Positions 36,917 through 49,558 of a DNA stretch of 64,000 nucleotides are shown in pieces (positions within the stretch are counted from its first letter, which is position 1; every line of letters starts with the position of its first letter). The stretch is from contig MVZN01000004.1 of NCBI GenBank assembly GCA_002069125.1, forward strand, positions 1 to 64,000, given 5' to 3'. The translations under genes were made by a program, and so were the position numbers. Below the pieces are notes generated by a model. That model saw only the letters and a list, made by a program, of their open reading frames with translations. It ran no database searches and was not told the origin of the DNA. Source of the DNA: Spirochaetes bacterium ADurb.BinA120 (GTDB taxonomy: Bacteria > Spirochaetota > UBA4802 > UBA5368).

Positions 36917-37900
36917 TCAGCTCCTCTGGGGCAGATATTTCAAGGGATCCACTGGCTTTCCGCCGTGCCCTATCTGAAAGTGGATGCTTCGGCTTCCATC
37001 ATCGATCCTTCCTATTACGGCGCCCGAAGGTATGCTTTCACCCTCCTTCACCCTTATCTCTCCCATGCGAGAATACACGGACACGAAGCGTTCGCCATGC
37101 GATATGATCACGTAGCGGCCGTAACCCCGCATGTCTCCGATTCGCTTCACCACTCCGGGCGCGGCCGATACCACGACAGTGCCGGGCCTCCCCGTAATCT
37201 CCACCCCCAGGGGCTTTACACCTTCGGCGGAATCCCTTCGCACGGCGAGCACGCGCGGAAGCGGCCATCTGAAGTCGATGTTCGCCGCCGGTTCGGGCCT
37301 TCCGGCCACGGTTTTTTTTGCTTTAGAGACAGGCCTTCCGCAGGAGGGAACCCTCAGTTTCATTCCCACTTTAATCGCGTCGTTTTTTCTAAGACCGTTC
37401 AGATGGGCAATATCATTGACCGAGCAGCCGTACCGCCTGGAGAGGCCGTAAAGGGTGTCGTTTTTCTTAACCGTGTGGCTTATTGTCCCTTCTGTATTCG
37501 ATGTCGCAGGCTTTTGACTTTGCTTGCGAGCGTTCTCCGCACCGATGAGCTTTTGCCGGTCGCGTGAATCCGGTGTATCCGCCTTTCCGTCGGGCTCGCC
37601 AGCGCCTTTCCCTTCACGCGGGAGTGGCCGTGCTCGACCATGGCCGGTATTTTCATTCCCTGCGTATCCGTTGTCTTCATTTCGGTCCGAATAATCAAAC
37701 CCGAAATCTTCATACACCGTCTCTTCATCACTCCAACGGTGCAGGATGGTCATATCTCTGGCCTGGCTGCGTTCGTAATTTTCGTTATGTATACCGCCAT
37801 CGCCGCGTACGGATACGCTTCGCGGCGGCGCGCAGTACGATCCCCCGGAAAAGACGAACAGCGCAAGCCAGGCGATTGCGCACATCCCTGTTGCCTTCAC
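36917..37900 (-). CDS. LysM and M23-like (LytM) domain protein, probably non-catalytic
   Basis: The start is GTG 37900 (AAAGGAG upstream), giving 327 residues with a signal peptide (ATGMCAIAWLALFVFSGGS). A low-complexity linker precedes a LysM domain (SHTVKKNDTLYGLSRRYGCS to VGMKLRVPS) that binds peptidoglycan. The C-terminal LytM domain (ARGVVKRIGDMRGYGRYVII-type) lacks the HxxxD zinc motif and has a single His (SIHFQIGHG) in place of HxH. This is the degenerate form seen in EnvC/NlpD amidase activators, so a regulatory role in cell separation is likelier than hydrolysis. Confidence 0.88.
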   Translation of the reverse strand: MKATGMCAIAWLALFVFSGGSYCAPPRSVSVRGDGGIHNENYERSQARDMTILHRWSDEETVYEDFGFDYSDRNEDNGYAGNENTGHGRARPLPREGKGAGEPDGKADTPDSRDRQKLIGAENARKQSQKPATSNTEGTISHTVKKNDTLYGLSRRYGCSVNDIAHLNGLRKNDAIKVGMKLRVPSCGRPVSKAKKTVAGRPEPAANIDFRWPLPRVLAVRRDSAEGVKPLGVEITGRPGTVVVSAAPGVVKRIGDMRGYGRYVIISHGERFVSVYSRMGEIRVKEGESIPSGAVIGRIDDGSRSIHFQIGHGGKPVDPLKYLPQRS

Positions 37901-38063
37901 GGAACAACTCCTTTCGTTCCCGGCGCGCGGGAGGCCCTTCCGCTGCCTCAGCGCGGCCAAATGAGCACAGTATCCCTTTATCTAATTATCGGCCCGGCGG
38001 TCTTTATAGTTGAGCATTTTTCCATTCTGGATTCCGGAGAGCCGCGCCCCACCGGCGACTAAG

Positions 38064-38486
38064 CTAACCCTGGCCGCTTCCCGCCGTCGTTATGGTTAGC
38101 TTCCCGTGCCGCACGTCTTTTATGGACAGGAGCCGGTCGGCGATCTTTTTTACGATCCTGGATTCTCCCTTTAGAATGAGGACCTCCAGGCAGTTGTGCT
38201 CGTCGAGGTGGACGTGCACGGCGGAGATAATGTTGCGGTAATTATCGTGCTGGATATCGTTAAGGCGCTCGGCGATCTCCCGCACCTCGTGGCTGTAGAC
38301 GAGGGTGAGGGTGCCAATGACCTCGGACTCCGGCGACGAAGCTTCCTCGCGCACGAGCGCGTCTCGTATCAGATCCCTGATCGCCTCTGACCGGTTTACA
38401 TAGCCTTTCTCCGATATAAGGCCGTCGAACTGCTGGAACAGTTTCTCCTCTATCGAGACGCCAAAGCGCAAAATTCTGTTTGCCAT
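38064..38486 (-). CDS. nikR: NikR nickel-responsive regulator
   Basis: A 140-residue ribbon-helix-helix/ACT protein. The DNA-binding part is ILRFGVSIEEKLFQQFDGLI. The high-affinity nickel site is complete: H80, H91, H93 and C99 (DIQH; SAVHVHLDEHNC), with the same spacing as H76, H87, H89 and C95 of E. coli NikR. The ATG at 38486 is used; a TTG at 38504 is an alternative. It controls nickel uptake or use. The hyp genes at the left edge are a possible target 37 kb away, but no NikR site is seen there. Confidence 0.95.
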   Translation of the reverse strand: MANRILRFGVSIEEKLFQQFDGLISEKGYVNRSEAIRDLIRDALVREEASSPESEVIGTLTLVYSHEVREIAERLNDIQHDNYRNIISAVHVHLDEHNCLEVLILKGESRIVKKIADRLLSIKDVRHGKLTITTAGSGQG

Positions 38487-38519
38487 CGGGGGGCCGTCCT
38501 GCAAGCGCTGATTGACAGC

Positions 38520-39000: not shown

Positions 39001-42000
39001 TCATTCCGTTTTCTCGATAATCACATAGCGCCGCTCGGCCCTCTGTATCCCCTCGCAGAAGTCGACGAACTCACCATAATCGGCCGGTTCTATCCTCGCC
39101 GCGCCGACGTGGACCTCTTTCTCGACTACTAGCTCGGTTTCGCCCGCGGCCTTCGACGCGCGTATAGAGGCGTACCCAAACCTGCTTTTAAGCGAGTCCT
39201 CTCTTTCTATTGCCGCTTTACGATAGCCATCCGGCAGCCTGAACCGATACCGCTCCGATTCGTTTACCGGGCGTATTATACGGTATGGATGTGTCCGTGC
39301 CCGTTCGTCCGCAAGGCCGAGCGCCTCGCTCTCGTTTAGCACCGGCGTTAGGATGATCCTGTCGGGGGTCGTAGCGGTAATGGCGAACGCCCTGCCGCTT
39401 ATCCTCAGATCGAAAGGCCCATCCACCGAATCGAGTCCCTCCATTTGAAAATCATCGAGACTGAAGGCAGGGAACATCCGCCCCAGCAAGCGGTTGATCA
39501 TCTCCTCCCTCGTATCCGCGTTAAAAAAAAGGGATCGCAGGCCCTCCCTGCCGCCGTGGAAGCTCACCCGTCCCCTGAATACGGCGTTTCCTCCATCTTC
39601 CAGGCGCACGTCCAGATCGATCCTGCTTCCATCCATCCTCGAGCCCGCGATGGTCCGAATCTCGGCGTAATCCCGGATAACTACAAGGGCATCGGCGCCC
39701 TCCAGGGCCGGAACCACTACCCCAAAACCATTGTAGGATCGCGAGTAATCCATCCACACGCCTCTATGGCGGTCGATCGGGACAAAGAGCAAGGCGTGTG
39801 TGAAACCGGCAGGAGACACAAATCCGCCCAGATCCGGAAAATCCCGTTCCGCGGCAAACGCGATGTATGAGCGTATCCCCAGACACTCCAGGATGGCCCT
39901 GGAAAGCACTGCCTTGTCCTCCGGCGTTCCCCGTTTTTTCATCATCGTTGCCGCCGCGCTATCGGGATAGTACAGTACGTTTCCAAGCGTATCGATTTCC
40001 CGGGAAACGTACTCGTACACGGCGCGGATCGTATCCCGTACATCCCTTGAGCCGAATTTCGAGCGTATGTCATCGGCCCGCAGGTCGGAAGAGCCCCGTA
40101 TGAGAGAGTTGTACCATCGTACGAAATCCTTTTTGTCGCGCATGGTGGATATCGCGTAAATAGGCAGGTAGTTAAGCCGGTTGCCCATCGCCTTCTCCAC
40201 TCTTACCGGGGCCCGATTTTCAATCCTCATGGAGTATTCCATTCCTCCATCGCGCCTTCTTTTACTCACCGGCCCACCGGTAAATACCACCCGCACATCC
40301 ATGTCCTCCGGAACCGTCACCCTGCACGAAAATACGCCGAGCGCCTCGTCAAAATCGTGCACCTCAAGGAGCGGCGTCGCGAAGAACACCGAATCACCAC
40401 GCAGGCTGAACGGATTATCCGCGTAATACGAAACATGTATAATCGAACGCTCGCCAAGTGAAGGAAGTGACAGGAATGAGGAGCCGTCAACCCTGACAAT
40501 CCTGCCCGCATCGCTGTAACCCCCACCCTCCCTATAGACCCGGGCCCTGAGCGGATACACCCTGGAGCCATGATCGAGCCTGAATTCACCATAGCGTTCT
40601 ATTCCTCGGCTGTCGTGCACATAGATTACGTCTTCGCAGAACACGCGGCCGCTTCCGTCACGGTTGAGGCGATACACCCTCTGCCTGAAGAGCACCTCGG
40701 AAGGGGCGCCCGAAGGCTTGATCCCTCCGCGCACCCATCGGTCAATATAGTCCTCCCCCTTTTCCTCGCGTTCCCGTGAAAGAGGATAATCCGGCCCGAG
40801 GCCGGTAACATAGTCCAGAAGATCGCCCATCAGGAAAAGCGACGGGGATATGGCAAGCATCTTACCCCAGTACAGGGACGGCGCCTCTCCCTCGAGATAC
40901 GATATCATTCCGAGACGCAGATAATATTCGGGGTCCTCCTTAACGGCGATGCTTTCAAGGAGCAGCCCGGAGGCGCGTTCGTATTCTCCCATTTCAATTA
41001 GCGCGTCTATCCTCTCGTTATCGTATTCGTGGAAATGATCGAAACGCTCTACAAGATCCACTATTTCAGAGTGTCGCCCCATGCCTCGAAGGATACGGAT
41101 CAGCGCTTCAAGCGCGTTTTTATCGAATTCCGTCTCGATCGCTTTGTGGTACAGCCGGGCGGAGCGCGCCGGGTCGCGTTTGGCGTTGAAAGAGGCTATA
41201 ATCTTTGCCGGAGAGGACGAAGAGGGAAATTCTTTTATTAAAGCCTCGGAATCCTGTTCGAATTCCCTCTCGTAGCCCAGCCCCGCCAGCATGGAGGAGT
41301 ACAAAACCCGAAGCGGCAGAAAGCGCGGCGCCTCCTCCGTCAGGCGCCTTCCCTCTACAAAGGCTTCGGCCATGGACTGGCGGTCGATTAGGTTCTGGAG
41401 ACGGCGGTAACGCGCGGGCATAAACGCAGCGTCGGAATCCGACAGTTCACGATAGATAAGCGCCGCCTCCATATACTCCGCCGTTCCCCGGTCATTGCCG
41501 GAGGCTCCAAGCAGGGATTCCGCCAGAAAATATCGGCACGGAAATCCCGCCTCTGAGCCAATTCCCAGCCTGAAATACTTTTCCGCCTCACGGCTCTCCC
41601 GTTCGCTGAAAAAGCTCCCCAGATGAAAAAGCGCGCCCCTTTCTTTGCCATGCAGCCGCCGAACGAGCTCCGCATAGGGATAATCCATCACCTCCGTAAA
41701 TTCACAAGAGCCGGTCGGGCTGTTCATGGGTATCGTTTCCGTATCGATAGGGACATCGTTCAAATCGGTCACGATCGCCCTGAATTTCCAGTCGTCCTCC
41801 CTGTATAGCTTAATCATCAGCGCCACGGCGCCTTCCGCCTTTAGTTCGACTACGCGAGATGAACGGCGCGCGGCCCTCTCGACATTGGCGAGGGCCAGGC
41901 GACCGTTCAGGTACAGGCGATAAGGGCAGGATGAATAGATCCGTAACCTCACGGGACGTCCCGGGCCGATGGCGGTCGCGGCATAGGCCACCCCCCTTCC

Positions 42001-42570
42001 GGGCGCCAGAACGCGGGCAAAGTCGATTTCCCCTTGTTTAGGGTCGGCGGATACCCTCTTCCAACGCGCTACCTCTCCGGTCGCCGGTGGGGCGATTTCC
42101 GGTAGAAATGGATGATCGATGTCGCCCGCGCCATAGCGATGATAGGGCCCGCTGACCATCCATTTGGATATGGGACGCAGCTCCTTCACTATTCCGGCCA
42201 ACGCTCCAGGCGAGTAGCGGCGCGCCAGCCTTTCGCGTTGCAGCAGAATGCCAAGCCCATAAAGGCCGGCGTGTTCCGGTTTTTCCTCATTCAGTCGCGC
42301 CGCAATCCGCGAAAGGGAATCCTCGACCCTTGCCCTCCCGTAAACGTCTGCAAGCGTCACCAGATCCGACAGGTACAGCGCAGCTTCCGGTGAACCGGGG
42401 TGTTCCATCAACAGGCTCTCGATAGCTTCATACAGGGCGTAATAATCCCCCGCCGCGAATGCCGAAAAAACCCGAGCCTCATACGATGCTGGGTCGCCTC
42501 CAGCGGCCTTTGAAGCGGCCGATAATATTAGAAGAATCGATGCCACGGCGGCGAGATATCTAACGCGCAT
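39001..42570 (-). CDS. Giant exported DUF3857/transglutaminase-like protein, Cys-less paralogue
   Basis: A 1189-residue exported protein (signal peptide MRVRYLAAVASILLILSAAS). Order: TPR-like helices, a beta-sandwich domain (~150-290), TPR repeats, a DUF3857 domain (~640-800), a transglutaminase-like core (~850-950), and a C-terminal beta domain. In the core the nucleophile position is Pro883 (RGTPEDKAVL instead of GDCKD), while His925 and Asp941 remain. Enzymatic activity by the usual mechanism is therefore unlikely. Its start overlaps the end of the active paralogue by 11 bp, so the two are translationally coupled. Confidence 0.88.
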   Translation of the reverse strand: MRVRYLAAVASILLILSAASKAAGGDPASYEARVFSAFAAGDYYALYEAIESLLMEHPGSPEAALYLSDLVTLADVYGRARVEDSLSRIAARLNEEKPEHAGLYGLGILLQRERLARRYSPGALAGIVKELRPISKWMVSGPYHRYGAGDIDHPFLPEIAPPATGEVARWKRVSADPKQGEIDFARVLAPGRGVAYAATAIGPGRPVRLRIYSSCPYRLYLNGRLALANVERAARRSSRVVELKAEGAVALMIKLYREDDWKFRAIVTDLNDVPIDTETIPMNSPTGSCEFTEVMDYPYAELVRRLHGKERGALFHLGSFFSERESREAEKYFRLGIGSEAGFPCRYFLAESLLGASGNDRGTAEYMEAALIYRELSDSDAAFMPARYRRLQNLIDRQSMAEAFVEGRRLTEEAPRFLPLRVLYSSMLAGLGYEREFEQDSEALIKEFPSSSSPAKIIASFNAKRDPARSARLYHKAIETEFDKNALEALIRILRGMGRHSEIVDLVERFDHFHEYDNERIDALIEMGEYERASGLLLESIAVKEDPEYYLRLGMISYLEGEAPSLYWGKMLAISPSLFLMGDLLDYVTGLGPDYPLSREREEKGEDYIDRWVRGGIKPSGAPSEVLFRQRVYRLNRDGSGRVFCEDVIYVHDSRGIERYGEFRLDHGSRVYPLRARVYREGGGYSDAGRIVRVDGSSFLSLPSLGERSIIHVSYYADNPFSLRGDSVFFATPLLEVHDFDEALGVFSCRVTVPEDMDVRVVFTGGPVSKRRRDGGMEYSMRIENRAPVRVEKAMGNRLNYLPIYAISTMRDKKDFVRWYNSLIRGSSDLRADDIRSKFGSRDVRDTIRAVYEYVSREIDTLGNVLYYPDSAAATMMKKRGTPEDKAVLSRAILECLGIRSYIAFAAERDFPDLGGFVSPAGFTHALLFVPIDRHRGVWMDYSRSYNGFGVVVPALEGADALVVIRDYAEIRTIAGSRMDGSRIDLDVRLEDGGNAVFRGRVSFHGGREGLRSLFFNADTREEMINRLLGRMFPAFSLDDFQMEGLDSVDGPFDLRISGRAFAITATTPDRIILTPVLNESEALGLADERARTHPYRIIRPVNESERYRFRLPDGYRKAAIEREDSLKSRFGYASIRASKAAGETELVVEKEVHVGAARIEPADYGEFVDFCEGIQRAERRYVIIEKTE

Positions 42571-45500
42571 CCCGGATCCCCGCTCCTTCCAAATTTCTGA
42601 TGATTATCCTCTCATTCTCCTTTCTATATATGAAGATGAGGAAATCTCTAAAGATGCCGTAATCCTCCGGGCGGACCTTCGAATCCTGGAAAACGACCCT
42701 GGATCTCGCCTCCACTTCCGAGTCGCCCCTTCTTATGTACTCGAACCTGGCGGAAAAGGACGGATGCGTTCGCTTCTCGGGGGCAGGCAGGACCTCGAAG
42801 GCCCATCCCTTCGGAATGCTGAAGCGAATCACGGTATCGCTCGTCCATCCCCCCGAAATCATGACCGGGGAAACACGAGATTTCATCATGCCATACTCTC
42901 GGTAATAATCCGAGGGCGCAATGAACGCGGGAAACGCCGCGTATTCTCCGGTTGTCGAAAGGAAGTATGGCAGCCTGACCTCATAAGAATATACCGCCGG
43001 TTCCTCGGTCCCGGTTTGGAGCGCCTTAAGGCCGCTCACCCTGGCCCCGCTGTATTTCGAATTCCAGTAAGCGCCAATCTCCCTGAGTTTTTTCGATTCA
43101 TCGAGAAGGTCACTCCTCACCGTTCGGGCGAATGCGCCGCCTTTGCTAAGACTACGTTTGAATACGGCCCCGCCTTGCGGATCGATGTTCACATCGGTGA
43201 CCACCGTTTCATTGTTCTCGTGATAAAACCGCCCGCCGGTGTCGATGAAGGAGTGGCCCCTCTCGCCGATGACCAGCGACTGGACGTTTCTATCCCCGGA
43301 TGGAAGCTCGCGGAAACCGGCCATCCTGGCCGTGGCGTCGAGAAATATCCCCCCTTCGAGATTGACGTAGCAGATCGCGTGATTAAACTGGCCGACGCAG
43401 GGAATCGACCGGTCCAGCGCGCCCCGCTCCCTGGTCCGTATCAGGGCCATGCGCGCATCGATGCCCGCCGCGCGAAGCATTGAGACCAGGACCAGACTCA
43501 TATCCTTGCAATCCCCCATGCGCGTGGCGTAGGTCAGGTCCGCTCTTCGCGGCTGTAACCCACCCAGGCCGAGCTCGAAACCGACGTAGCGGATCAACGA
43601 ATTGACGTGATTGTAAATTTTTCGCGTTTTTTCGATATCGGAATCCCCGCCGGCAATCAGTCGCGCCAGATCGCGCCGCATCTCCGCGCTCATGGAGCTT
43701 CTACCGCGCATAAGGGAGGCGTACCAGCCCGCCGCCTCATCCCAACCGCCATGAGAGCTCACCGTGAGCGAGGGGATGATCTCGCTGTGATGGGGCATGG
43801 CGACTTCGTTCCGGACTGGCCTGAGGTTCTCGATCCTTAAGAGGTTGATCAGACTCTCGCCGTCCCTTTTAACGGAGATTCTGTTCTTATCCAATAAGCT
43901 CGGCCATACGTGCAGGGGCATACCCTCGGGCCTGCTTATGACTATGTTGGAAACAAGAGTCCGGTATCCACCCCCGGCCATTATCCGCTCGCCGATATAG
44001 CCCCTGTACAGGCGCGCCTCTCCCGAACGAAGCCTGTAGCTCATATCCACAAGGCTCCCCCGCCCCAGCGAGGGGATGGCGAGCACCCTGGCCTGCACGT
44101 CATAGTACAGGCGGCTTTCGGGGTCGGACAGAGAACGGGTATATGTCTGTGAGCTTTCAACGGTTTCACCGCCATGGCTCACCACGCAGCGCACGTTGTC
44201 TACGCTGTCCGTCTCCGGGTTGAAAACGATATACTGGGTGGAAAAATCGCCTATGGCGCTATCGGCGTTTATTCGGAAGACCTTTCTCACGTTTTTTTCG
44301 AAGGAGCCGTCCGCCGTTATTTTAATGACACACTCGTCCAGGATCATCACCGCGGCCTCGGAGCGGTGCTCTTCCGCCCTCTCGATCAGCGCGTCGTTCA
44401 CCGGAACTCTGTAAGACGCCAGGGCGTCGGGTGTGCGTTCTATGGCCTCTATGTATTCCTTGATCCTGTAGTCGTCCGGATTCCGCGCCAATGCCTCCTT
44501 CATATATCGAAGGCCCATGCGGCTGTTCCCCCTGCGGTGGTACAGGGAACCAAGGTCGAACAGGATGCCGCCGTGGTCCGGAGCCATGCCGAGAGCGGCG
44601 CCAAGATATGGAAGCGCCGCGTCCCATCCCCGAACGGTCGCCGCCATCGTCGCCAGCCGGCGGCGCATCGAGGCGTCACAGTAGAAGATATGCGCGGACT
44701 CCTCGAGGATGGACAACGCCGCCGCCGGCTCCCCCGAGAGCTCCAGCGATTCCGCGAGCGCTTTCGCGGTCTCCCTGTTGAAGCGGTCCATTTCCAGGAG
44801 CCTTTCGTATTCGGATGCCGCCTTGGCGTATAGTCCCCTTGAAAACATCACCCGCGCTCGAATGGAGGCCCCGACCGAAGGAAAGCCCGAATCCTCTAGA
44901 GCCGAAGCCCGTTTGAGCGCCTCATCATGCCAGCCCCTCGCCAGAAAGTACGACGCCTCCAGCTCCCGGCCCGCCGGACAGGAGGGATTCATGCCCTTTA
45001 TCCGATCGATCAGCGGAGGGGCCTCATATATGAATCCGCCATCCATGCGGGACTGGACGATCTTCGCCATCGGCAGCAATGCCGTTTCGTCGCCATCCGC
45101 CGCCTCCCTCAACAGGCTAAGTCGCTTCTCCTCGTCGTCCCTGCATAGCGCCAGATAGTATCGCGCCATGCGCCCGTAGTCGCCGCTTTCCATCGCCGAC
45201 TGTAATAACGCGGCGGCTTCACCTCCCTCCTCGCTGTTCAAGCCCGCAGCATACAATAAAAAGCCGGCCCGGTAAGCCTCATCCGGTCCGCCGCTTGAAG
45301 CGCGGGACCGCATGGCTTCAAGGGCCTCGAAGAAATTTGCACGGCGCTCTTCCTCTCCTGTCGCCCTGTGCCGCAGTGAAAAACGGATTCCATCCGAGAG
45401 CGAATCCCCAATGCGGACGAGCACGCGGTGCCGACCGGGCCCGCAGCGGACGACGACCCTGTACTGGTCATGTATGAAGCGGTGCCGCGTATCGCTCCGG

Positions 45501-46216
45501 AATATGGGCTTTCCATCCACCCATATCCGGGTATGGCCGGTCTTCCCTATATGGAACACGCGGGTGGACGCCTCTCCTGTCGTAAACTCCGTCTCCAGAT
45601 AATACTGAGCGTTCGATGTATCCAGGCTCCTCTCCGCGGGATCGAGCACCCCGAGGCGGTCCGTGCGCGCGTCGAACCATCGAACCGGATACAGCTTGCC
45701 CGGATGATGAGAGAGCAGGCCGTGGGTGCCGGCCGCACTGCTCATCGCGTCGAAATTATCCGCGGTCGCGCCTGAGAAAGGCCCTATCATCCTGAACTCC
45801 CGCACGAAACCGAGTTCCCCAAGCGCCTTTTCCGCGGCCGGGGTGTCCCCTGCCATAAGCGAGAGCCCGGCTCGTAAAAGGCGAAGCCTTGCCCCAAGCT
45901 CCTCATGCCGCTCAAAGGCCCGGTTCTCCCTTTCAAGGCGATCACACGCGACGATGCCGTCACCGACCATCTCCGGATATCGCAGCGCTTCGGTCATCAC
46001 GAACAGGCCGTACTCGAGGAGGGCCGGATCATCAACGCCCTGCGCCGTCTTCACGATCTCCCCTAGAGCGCCGCGGTAGTCCCCATGCCAGAGCAGCTTT
46101 TCCGCCCGGTGCAAACCGGATTCGGCCCCACTAAAATCCGCGGCGAGGGCAAGCCCGCAAAGCGAGAGCGGAAGGATAATCCCCAGAAGGGGAATCAAGC
46201 CCCTAAGGGTTCGCAT
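42560..46216 (-). CDS. Giant exported DUF3857/transglutaminase-like protein, active-site paralogue
   Basis: A 1218-residue exported protein (signal peptide MRTLRGLIPLLGIILPLSLC, then GLALAA). The architecture matches its neighbour: beta-sandwich (~150-285, HIGKTGHTRIWVDGKPIF), TPR repeats, DUF3857 (KNVRKVFRINADSAIGDFS), and a transglutaminase core with the full triad Cys903 (RMGDCKDMSL), His946 (FNHAICYV) and Asp960 (FLDATARM). A role in cross-linking or cleaving periplasmic or surface proteins is plausible; no substrate is known. It is three bases after the TPR lipoprotein gene. Confidence 0.9.
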   Translation of the reverse strand: MRTLRGLIPLLGIILPLSLCGLALAADFSGAESGLHRAEKLLWHGDYRGALGEIVKTAQGVDDPALLEYGLFVMTEALRYPEMVGDGIVACDRLERENRAFERHEELGARLRLLRAGLSLMAGDTPAAEKALGELGFVREFRMIGPFSGATADNFDAMSSAAGTHGLLSHHPGKLYPVRWFDARTDRLGVLDPAERSLDTSNAQYYLETEFTTGEASTRVFHIGKTGHTRIWVDGKPIFRSDTRHRFIHDQYRVVVRCGPGRHRVLVRIGDSLSDGIRFSLRHRATGEEERRANFFEALEAMRSRASSGGPDEAYRAGFLLYAAGLNSEEGGEAAALLQSAMESGDYGRMARYYLALCRDDEEKRLSLLREAADGDETALLPMAKIVQSRMDGGFIYEAPPLIDRIKGMNPSCPAGRELEASYFLARGWHDEALKRASALEDSGFPSVGASIRARVMFSRGLYAKAASEYERLLEMDRFNRETAKALAESLELSGEPAAALSILEESAHIFYCDASMRRRLATMAATVRGWDAALPYLGAALGMAPDHGGILFDLGSLYHRRGNSRMGLRYMKEALARNPDDYRIKEYIEAIERTPDALASYRVPVNDALIERAEEHRSEAAVMILDECVIKITADGSFEKNVRKVFRINADSAIGDFSTQYIVFNPETDSVDNVRCVVSHGGETVESSQTYTRSLSDPESRLYYDVQARVLAIPSLGRGSLVDMSYRLRSGEARLYRGYIGERIMAGGGYRTLVSNIVISRPEGMPLHVWPSLLDKNRISVKRDGESLINLLRIENLRPVRNEVAMPHHSEIIPSLTVSSHGGWDEAAGWYASLMRGRSSMSAEMRRDLARLIAGGDSDIEKTRKIYNHVNSLIRYVGFELGLGGLQPRRADLTYATRMGDCKDMSLVLVSMLRAAGIDARMALIRTRERGALDRSIPCVGQFNHAICYVNLEGGIFLDATARMAGFRELPSGDRNVQSLVIGERGHSFIDTGGRFYHENNETVVTDVNIDPQGGAVFKRSLSKGGAFARTVRSDLLDESKKLREIGAYWNSKYSGARVSGLKALQTGTEEPAVYSYEVRLPYFLSTTGEYAAFPAFIAPSDYYREYGMMKSRVSPVMISGGWTSDTVIRFSIPKGWAFEVLPAPEKRTHPSFSARFEYIRRGDSEVEARSRVVFQDSKVRPEDYGIFRDFLIFIYRKENERIIIRNLEGAGIRDAR

Positions 46217-46219
46217 GCC

Positions 46220-47050
46220 CTATCTTCCCCCGCCGTCGTTTGCCGGCAGGCGAACGGCCCTGTTCACCATCTTTCCAGCCTCCTCGTTTCTACCCTGCCG
46301 TAAAAGCATCGAGGAATAATCAATGTACGCCTGCCTGTAATGCGGAAACGATCGCACGCAGCGGCGGTAGAAGATCTCCGCCTCCTTTTCCCTTCCCGTC
46401 CTTTCCATTAGGAGCGCCATTCGGTGCAAAGTCACCGGGTTGTCCGGGTCCGCGGCCAGCGCATCCCGGTAAAAACGCTCGGCCATGCCGTAATCCTCCC
46501 TCTCGAAAAAGATGTCCCCAAGCTCCAGGTCCGCATAGCTGTTCTCCGGATAGCGCTCCTTCATCAATAGCAGGGTCTTGGCCCCTTCCTCGAGTCTTCC
46601 GGCATATCTGTAGAGGATGTACAGATTGTAATATGCCGGGATGATCGCCTCGCGGCCCGCGATCAAGGCGAGCAGAATCCCCTCCGCCTCCTTCAACCTT
46701 CCGCTTTCGAGCCGAACGCAGGCGAGGTTGTTCAAGGCCATGGCGCGGTTTTCCATGCCCTCATCGGCTAAGGCTTCGTACTGCACGGCCGCTCTGTTAA
46801 AGGCCTCCCTGCCCTTTTCCATAAGGTGGTGGCGCCGGGCAAGGCTCCATCTTTCGCAGTAGCTCTTTTCCAGCTTTCCCTCGATGGCTTCCACGCTCCT
46901 CTTCCATTCGTCACCGCAGCCGCCGGGAAAGCGCAGAGCGAGAGGAAGGCGCCCGGGCCCCTCCCCAATGACATCCTCGTGCCCCTCTCGCACGGCCTGG
47001 GAGGCGCAAGACGTTAAAAACATTACAAGTACAAGGGCAAGACTTTTCAT
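46220..47050 (-). CDS. TPR-repeat lipoprotein
   Basis: ATG 47050 (GGGAGACG upstream) gives 276 residues with a lipobox LTSC, so Cys14 is the lipidated residue of the mature protein. Six or so TPR repeats follow (MALNNLACVRLESGRLKEAE; AYYNLYILYRYAGRLEEGAK; YADLELGDIFFEREDYGMAE). It is first in the operon with the two giant paralogues and may anchor or assemble them at the membrane. Confidence 0.88.
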   Translation of the reverse strand: MKSLALVLVMFLTSCASQAVREGHEDVIGEGPGRLPLALRFPGGCGDEWKRSVEAIEGKLEKSYCERWSLARRHHLMEKGREAFNRAAVQYEALADEGMENRAMALNNLACVRLESGRLKEAEGILLALIAGREAIIPAYYNLYILYRYAGRLEEGAKTLLLMKERYPENSYADLELGDIFFEREDYGMAERFYRDALAADPDNPVTLHRMALLMERTGREKEAEIFYRRCVRSFPHYRQAYIDYSSMLLRQGRNEEAGKMVNRAVRLPANDGGGR

Positions 47051-47265: not shown

Positions 47266-48216
47266 ATGAAGGCGCGACTGTGGAAACCCTTGCTCTGCGC
47301 GATCGTGCCACTTATAACCGCAGGGCATCCATCCGCCTTCCCCGGCAAGGCGCCCCCGGACCCCTTCCATGATGTGTTTTACACTTATTATACCGAAAGC
47401 CGGCCCCAGGCCCGCCGTATGCTCTCCTCGCTGCTCGGAAATCATGTGCATCGAGGCCGCGCCCTTATAAACTCGGGAAAGATCGAGGAGATCGAAAAAC
47501 GCCCGGAAAGGGCCGCTGCCCTGTACCGCGACGCCTTCAATCGGGGCGAACGCATGGCGCTCCCCTATCTGTACCGCTCTCTGCAAAAGTCCGATCCCGC
47601 GGCGGCCGGTAAATTGCTCGATTCGCTCTCCACTAAGGAGCCCGGGGGCTGGCTCGCCTATGAGCGATCGCTCGTTATGCTCCGACGCGGGGACCCGGCC
47701 GGCGCTCTTCGCCTTCTCGGCGCTGCCGTCAGCCTTGGATTCAACTCGCGCGATCTCCTGCTGCGCGAGCCCCTCTTCGACCCTCTGCGCACAACGCCTG
47801 AATACAGGGACATCATTATGAGGATTAAACCGCCGGCCCCGGGAAGGCTTACGAGAATGCTCGACGACATTCGCAGGGAACGGCTTAAGGGGACCCCCCT
47901 CCATATCGATCCGGCCTTCTCCATAATCGGGGAGCTCGAAAGAAAGGGGAGGTTGGCCGAGGCGGAACACGCCCTCACCCGCCTTCTCGCGGCCCCCCTC
48001 GCCTTCAACGAAAGGAGCCTGGCGCTTTATCGGATGGCCCGAATTCGCGCGCGGCGTGGGGACGCCTCGGGCGCGCGTGAGGCCCTGGCGCGGCATGATG
48101 AACTCTTTAAAAATACCAGGGACGAGGCGAGCGGCTACCGGGCCATTATCGCGCCCTTCATTTCCGACATAATCGCCAATGACGATGCGGGCCTACTTCC
48201 CTATGCAAAACCGTGA
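47266..48216 (+). CDS. Exported TPR-like protein, 316 aa
   Basis: A signal peptide (MKARLWKPLLCAIVPLITAG) is followed by a ~295-residue helical protein with TPR-like units (RPERAAALYRDAFNRGERMA; GGWLAYERSLVMLRRGDPAG; MARIRARRGDASGAREALAR). It is divergent from the TPR lipoprotein operon and may share its envelope function. Its 3' end overlaps the convergent mnmE gene by 24 bp. Confidence 0.78.
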   Translation: MKARLWKPLLCAIVPLITAGHPSAFPGKAPPDPFHDVFYTYYTESRPQARRMLSSLLGNHVHRGRALINSGKIEEIEKRPERAAALYRDAFNRGERMALPYLYRSLQKSDPAAAGKLLDSLSTKEPGGWLAYERSLVMLRRGDPAGALRLLGAAVSLGFNSRDLLLREPLFDPLRTTPEYRDIIMRIKPPAPGRLTRMLDDIRRERLKGTPLHIDPAFSIIGELERKGRLAEAEHALTRLLAAPLAFNERSLALYRMARIRARRGDASGAREALARHDELFKNTRDEASGYRAIIAPFISDIIANDDAGLLPYAKP

Positions 48217-49548
48217 GAATATGGAATTGAGGACGTCGTCGGCCGTCACCTCACCCGTTACGGCCCCGAGCGTGTCGAGGAGGGTCTGAAGTTCGAAGGC
48301 GATTATCTCGCCCGGCCCTTTGTCCTTTATGATGCCATCGGTCCTTTCCATCACCGCGAGGGCCTCCTCCAGAAGCGCGGTCATACGGATGTCGGCCACA
48401 AAGAAATCCCTCTGATCCGCGAAATCCCCGGCCAGGGTCGAGACGATCGCCGCCTCAAGCTCCTTAAGGCCCCTGCCGGTTTTAGCGGAGAACGAAATCC
48501 CCTCTCCGCCAAGCTCCTCGCGCAGTCTTGCGAGCGCTTCATCGTCCACCAGGTCGGCCTTGTTCAGAAGGACAATCCTCCTCTTTCCGGCCGCCAGATC
48601 GAGGACCCTTCGATCCTCGCCGAGTATGCCGCTCGAAGCGTCAACGACCACCATAAGCAACGAAGAGGATGACATCCGGGCCAGGCTCAAGCCTATCCCG
48701 ATCTCCTCGATCTCGCAGGAAGGGGTATCGATCCCTGCAGTGTCCATCAGGTTGATGAAAAGGCCCCCCATGCGGACGCTCTCGCTGATGGTGTCGCGCG
48801 TGGTCCCCGGTATGGATGAAACTATCGCGCGCTCGGCGTTCAGCATGAGGTTGAGGACGCTCGATTTTCCGACATTGGGCCTCCCGACTATCGGCAGGTC
48901 TATACCCCGGCTCACGCGCTCCCCGACGCGACACCGGCGCAGCACCGTCTCCACGAGCTCCCTTATCTCGGAGAGCCGGCAGGAGGCCTCCTCCTCGCCG
49001 ACGAACTCGATTTCCTCCTCCGAGAAGTCGATACCGCACTCTATGTCGGCCTTCAACTCGACGAGGCCCTGTCTTATCCGGTCTATTGCAACGCGGAGCG
49101 AGCCGTGCATCTGCCGCACGGCGGCCTCGATCTCCCATTCCCCGCGGGCCGTTATAATGTGGTTGATCGCCTCGGCCTCGGTGAGGTCTATCTTGCCGTT
49201 AAGGAAGGCGCGGCTGCTGAACTCGCCGGGTTCGGCGATGCGAAGGCCGCGCGATAGGAGCAGGGCGAGAATCCTGTTAACCACGATCGGGTTTCCATGG
49301 CACGAGATCTCGGCCATGTCCTCCCCTGTAAAGCTCGATGGAGCCCTGTAACCCACCACGACGACGTCGTCCACGATGGAACCCTCATCGATTATGGAAC
49401 CGTAAACCGCCCGCCGGTGTTCGAGCGCCTTGCCCCGGCTGAACAGAGACGCGACGGCCCTGAAGGTATCAGGGCCGCTCACACGTATCATCGCGATGGG
49501 CGAGTTCACCGGCGCGGTGGCCGGCGCACAGATGGTGTCGTCCGACAT
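48193..49548 (-). CDS. mnmE: tRNA modification GTPase MnmE
   Basis: MnmE (with MnmG) makes the 5-carboxymethylaminomethyl group at U34 of certain tRNAs. The 451-residue protein starts MSDDTICAPATAP at 49548. The N-terminal tetrahydrofolate domain, a helical domain, and an inserted G domain are visible: GRPNVGKSSVLNLMLNAERA, the switch IPGTTRDTI, DTAGID and LLNKADLVD. The C-terminal FCIGK motif that carries the catalytic Cys is present. It is the last gene of the conserved rpmH-rnpA-yidD-yidC-khpB-mnmE block. Confidence 0.97.
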   Translation of the reverse strand: MSDDTICAPATAPVNSPIAMIRVSGPDTFRAVASLFSRGKALEHRRAVYGSIIDEGSIVDDVVVVGYRAPSSFTGEDMAEISCHGNPIVVNRILALLLSRGLRIAEPGEFSSRAFLNGKIDLTEAEAINHIITARGEWEIEAAVRQMHGSLRVAIDRIRQGLVELKADIECGIDFSEEEIEFVGEEEASCRLSEIRELVETVLRRCRVGERVSRGIDLPIVGRPNVGKSSVLNLMLNAERAIVSSIPGTTRDTISESVRMGGLFINLMDTAGIDTPSCEIEEIGIGLSLARMSSSSLLMVVVDASSGILGEDRRVLDLAAGKRRIVLLNKADLVDDEALARLREELGGEGISFSAKTGRGLKELEAAIVSTLAGDFADQRDFFVADIRMTALLEEALAVMERTDGIIKDKGPGEIIAFELQTLLDTLGAVTGEVTADDVLNSIFSRFCIGK

Positions 49549-49558
49549 CGCCATCCCT

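Follow-up and report, generated by a model that had tools for sequence, protein, structure and literature searches.

The locus lies in the 3.5-Mb draft genome of an uncultured spirochaete, within the 64,000-nucleotide stretch of DNA that was analyzed (the window). Three consecutive genes, all on the minus strand, encode in this order a TPR lipoprotein of 276 residues (46220–47050), an exported protein of 1218 residues (42560–46216, protein A) and a second exported protein of 1189 residues (39001–42570, protein B). The lipoprotein gene starts with an ATG near 47050; its product was assigned from a TPR match and from a lipobox (...FLTSC, core LTSC) whose Cys is invariant in eight relatives. A and B both begin with signal-peptide-like N-termini, and in the window neither has a lipobox. 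The lipoprotein stop codon (46220) and the A start codon (ATG, 46216) are separated by 3 bp, and the reading frames of A and B share 11 bp (42560–42570), an overlap that probably couples their translation. These reading frames, their coordinates and the two spacings match those given in a preliminary description of this DNA, as do the positions of Cys903, His946 and Asp960 in A and of Pro883, His925 and Asp941 in B.

The trio is placed after a yidC-jag-mnmE locus, for which mnmE (48193–49554, minus strand) serves as the upstream landmark. A divergent exported TPR protein of 316 residues is encoded on the plus strand at 47266–48216. Its relatives (cluster c3) occur in 11 other sampled genomes, mostly adjoining A, and it is a possible associate. 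Reading a function from the neighbors (yidC-jag-mnmE, tsaD, an S41 protease, a CHASE2 cyclase, PLD and radC) was abandoned, these being mostly housekeeping genes that outline no coherent pathway. Promoter and terminator scans gave signals near chance level. Downstream of the trio, 36917–38504 encodes a LysM/M23 peptidase and a NikR-like regulator.

A consists of an N-terminal helical domain, a β-sandwich, a TPR solenoid, a DUF3857 domain (residues 635–773), a transglutaminase core and a DUF3858-like C-terminus. Pfam recognizes the TPRs, DUF3857 (PF12969; 47.5 bits, curated cut-off 24.6 bits) and Transglut_core (PF01841; 39.8 bits, cut-off 23 bits). B is too divergent to reach these cut-offs (13.5 bits for DUF3857 and 16.3 bits for Transglut_core), and its family membership is based on profile–profile and fold comparison. 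Profile–profile alignment of A with B (hhalign) covers 1133 columns at 18% identity with a probability of 100%; given this end-to-end homology, B arose by duplication of the giant protein as a whole. The AlphaFold models of A and B have the same pLDDT of 88, with a pTM of 0.62 for A and 0.84 for B. Both models contain, from the N- to the C-terminus, helices, a β-sandwich, an α-solenoid, a β-domain, a transglutaminase-type domain and a C-terminal β-domain. The same order of domains that had been proposed for the two proteins is therefore borne out by the profile–profile alignment and by the fold matches. The top fold match of the A and B models is PDB 3KD4 (TM by target 0.83 and 0.76), followed by TPR solenoids. 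Over ∼220 columns the B model also resembles two M1 metallopeptidase structures (6koz and 6iff); our guess is that this reflects the DUF3857 part.

The two proteins were compared across 46 genomes of the order to which the source belongs and in other Spirochaetota genomes. The catalytic Cys is present in 25 of 26 A proteins, and 23 of 24 A sequences have a complete Cys-His-Asp triad, the exception being genome G033. No Cys was found at the Pro883 position in any relative of B. The 26 full-length or fused B proteins carry Pro, Val, Ala or Ser there, the triad positions of B in the distant genome G068 are Thr, Ser and Asp, and none of 11 shortened B proteins has the Cys, most of them being without the Asp as well. 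A chance Cys-to-Pro change in one strain is ruled out by the absence of Cys from all 26. The His is kept in eight of the 26 and the Asp is invariant in all of them, and a motif of the type G-T-x-E-D stands in place of G-D-C-K-D. The residue pattern of the main A and B sets extends to both proteins of G068 and to A of G056.

In the tree, A forms one clade and B another, both well supported. Since each clade includes the distant G047 and G068, B most likely lost its Cys before these lineages parted. The pseudo-transglutaminase domain is the best-conserved domain of B across the order, and its dN/dS is 0.08–0.10 (from two of three species pairs, dS being saturated in the third), compared with 0.09–0.13 for the active domain of A. 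The pseudo-domain is under strong purifying selection. An assembly error or a decaying pseudogene is ruled out by the open frame in sampled relatives together with the dN/dS of about 0.1. The preliminary description was thus right to place a pseudoenzyme beside an apparently active paralogue: B is a true and ancient pseudo-transglutaminase paralogue. For A, the probable activity is that of a cysteine peptidase or transamidase in the periplasm. That B is still an enzyme, with a different nucleophile or with another reaction that uses the retained Asp, is very improbable. Conservation of the pseudo-domain, the invariant Asp of full-length B and the replacement motif would fit such an activity, but the Cys position is variable (P, V, A, S or T), as is the His position (H, D, N, S, A or R), and even the Asp has gone from most shortened B proteins.

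Cys-bearing A occurs together with B in 21 of the 46 genomes, in some as fragments at contig ends. One further genome (G033) has a full-length A with Cys mutated to Ser and His to Arg, three (G029, G034 and G030) have a short A that lacks the catalytic half, and in two (G011 and G020) the N-terminal half of A is fused to B. Shortened B alone is present in 11 genomes, neither protein in seven, and A without B in one (G043, whose assembly is 81% complete). Beyond the order, the pair was found in G047, G068 and, partially, G056. The expected co-occurrence of A and B is thus seen in about half of the genomes of the order and outside it. With no Cys in the relatives of B, this removes both grounds on which the preliminary description would have put the pair down to chance. 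An alignment of B across the order proved too diverse to yield a pattern for scanning contigs, and a scan with a closer B alignment retrieved seven named Spirochaetota contigs, from metagenome assemblies. In G006 (L088:9700–13736) A is split into several frames by frameshifts or assembly errors. G017, which has neither A nor a full-length B, carries a remnant of the B C-terminus with an internal stop (G017:C1:442654–442884), an apparent recent loss.

Linkage of the two genes varies. They overlap or almost touch in family f1, in f3 and in G047, with spacings from −26 to +2 in linked genomes other than the one analyzed here; in G008 one alcohol-dehydrogenase-like gene lies between them. They are distant or on separate contigs in f4, in G015 and in those f7 genomes that have both, and overall about one genome in two shows no linkage of A with B. 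The lipoprotein is present in all eight sampled f1 genomes and in G030, where it precedes the short A and B, and was not found elsewhere among the sampled genomes. It is a probable membrane anchor. Given its confinement to f1 and G030, the trio is ruled out as a conserved unit, and the three-part layout put forward in the preliminary description is not supported as such a unit.

On the MnmE tree, B without an active A occurs at four or more positions, namely genus g12, family f6, the f7 clade of G022, G036 and G039–G042, and the f5 fusion pair; the B tree concurs for the fusions and for g12. The A protein of G033 (L070:7858–11517), with both substitutions in its triad, is by its residues independently inactivated. 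In G029 and G034 the short A gene retains its neighbors on both flanks and is therefore not a contig end. In G011 and G020 a single gene joins the N-terminal half of A to B, the catalytic half of A being gone (L092:7081–11142 and L095:9847–13929). Among the 11 genomes with shortened B alone, five have it at the mnmE site. In genus g8 of f6 it immediately follows mnmE, at the place that the trio occupies in f1 and G030, which suggests that the lipoprotein and A were lost in place. Genomes without an active A were searched with A-based queries, and they may contain another active enzyme.

These observations bear on the view that B is a dedicated regulator of A catalysis (an allosteric activator, an inhibitor or a chaperone), as in a classic pseudoenzyme–enzyme pair. 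The overlap of the genes in several genera, their co-occurrence, the fusion of the A N-terminal half with B and the correlated rates of the two proteins are what a regulator would lead one to expect. A pure regulator is also expected to decay along with its target, but B and its pseudo-domain persist where A is truncated, mutated, fused away or, in 11 genomes, absent. This retention without the catalytic site of A argues that B is more than a regulator of A catalysis, and we regard the regulatory explanation as rather unlikely. It had been advanced, alongside complex formation, in the preliminary description on the strength of the pairing, of which the co-occurrence stands and the regulatory reading is weakened. 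It is concluded that the role of B does not everywhere depend on catalysis by A.

Several lines of evidence tie A to B. Their evolutionary distances remain correlated after correction for MnmE distance (partial r 0.80, permutation p 0.0002), a result that is only suggestive of a common task, MnmE being the one protein used for correction. The fusion in G011 and G020 is a Rosetta-stone link between the two proteins. Fusions, overlaps, co-occurrence and correlated distances together support a common task of A and B. They speak against independent jobs for the two proteins, in which an old duplicate, inherited in common, would explain the co-occurrence and tandem duplication would have left the genes adjacent. 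Such independence would account for the unlinked genes of f7 and f4 and for shortened B alone in 11 genomes, but A without B is nearly absent, and neither the A–B fusions nor the tight overlaps and correlated rates would be expected; we consider it unlikely.

The explanation we favor, and to which we give an even chance, is that A and B arose by whole-protein duplication and work in the same pathway, A as the enzyme and B as a durable non-catalytic binding or scaffold partner. An ancestor with a helical domain, a β-sandwich, a TPR solenoid, DUF3857, a transglutaminase fold and a DUF3858-like domain would have been duplicated whole. A would have retained Cys-His-Asp and probably acts in the periplasm on proteins or peptides of the envelope, as a cysteine peptidase or transamidase, and B would have lost its nucleophile early and been kept as a non-catalytic partner. 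The pseudo-active site and TPR solenoid of B may bind a protein or peptide. The two proteins most likely share a pathway and frequently a complex, which in family f1 the TPR lipoprotein would anchor at the membrane. B would be the more durable part, devoted to binding or scaffolding, and catalysis by A would be dispensable in some lineages. It is an unusual direction of evolution for a pseudoenzyme to outlast the enzyme, as is seen here in four or more lineages.

PDB 3KD4 is BDI_1141 of Parabacteroides distasonis (sequence identical to P0009); no other solved structure of the DUF3857 family was found. It has AYGTPLEIAQL at the site of the Cys motif (G-T-P), and its His and Asp are also missing as aligned. 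Given that it has no catalytic Cys, the label 'putative protease' is probably a misnomer. In P. distasonis a DUF3857 paralogue bearing Cys-His-Asp is followed, after 13 bp, by the 3KD4 gene (NZ_OY725779.1, L256:4650–8205). Like A and B, 3KD4 combines DUF3857, a transglutaminase fold and DUF3858, and like B it is a Cys-less protein beside a Cys-bearing paralogue. Unlike A and B, 3KD4 and its neighbor have ∼500–650 residues and are without the TPR or β-sandwich half; no TPR lipoprotein was seen adjoining the 3KD4 gene. Pairs of Cys-less and Cys-bearing proteins thus recur. Plasmid searches for DUF3857 pairs returned one clear tandem pair.

Further pairs were found in three other Spirochaetota genomes, G059, G070 and G105 (L208:3820–7964, L209:3084–7276 and L210:3281–7478), as tandem DUF3857 proteins of ∼700 residues. 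They resemble A and B in placing Cys-less and Cys-bearing DUF3857 proteins side by side, and differ in that the TPR half is missing, the Cys-less gene comes first, followed by the Cys-His-Asp gene, and the proteins cluster together, apart from A and B. Constraining B and this group together in the tree gave an AU p of 0.30, so one origin of the inactivation is not rejected. For B and 3KD4 the AU p was 0.59, by which a common origin is neither rejected nor shown. A tentative and somewhat doubtful extension is that 3KD4, B and the other Cys-less DUF3857 proteins with a transglutaminase fold make up a single old lineage common to Bacteroidota and Spirochaetota, which pairs with an active paralogue and is able to outlive it. 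An envelope system not described before would then have the pseudoenzyme as its conserved core and the enzyme as an optional component. The biology of DUF3857 proteins is almost absent from the literature; a full-text search returned a single paper that names DUF3857, and nothing useful on the function of DUF3857 or BDI_1141. The question now is what the conserved dead transglutaminase fold binds.

A TPR lipoprotein is also known to serve a periplasmic protease in the LbcA–CtpA system of Pseudomonas aeruginosa (PMC8764530). The fold matches of B include LbcA, via the TPR solenoid. CtpA, a C-terminal processing protease (S41), differs in fold from A with its transglutaminase fold, and the TPR lipoprotein described here, limited to f1 and G030, is not a constant companion of A. 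We know of no pseudo-protease paralogue in LbcA–CtpA. The likeness would thus be one of analogy and not of family membership. In another arrangement of these domains, L196, L199 and L200 encode large DUF3857-transglutaminase proteins of ∼1290–1380 residues in which the catalytic half comes first and TPR-like regions follow, the reverse of the order in A.
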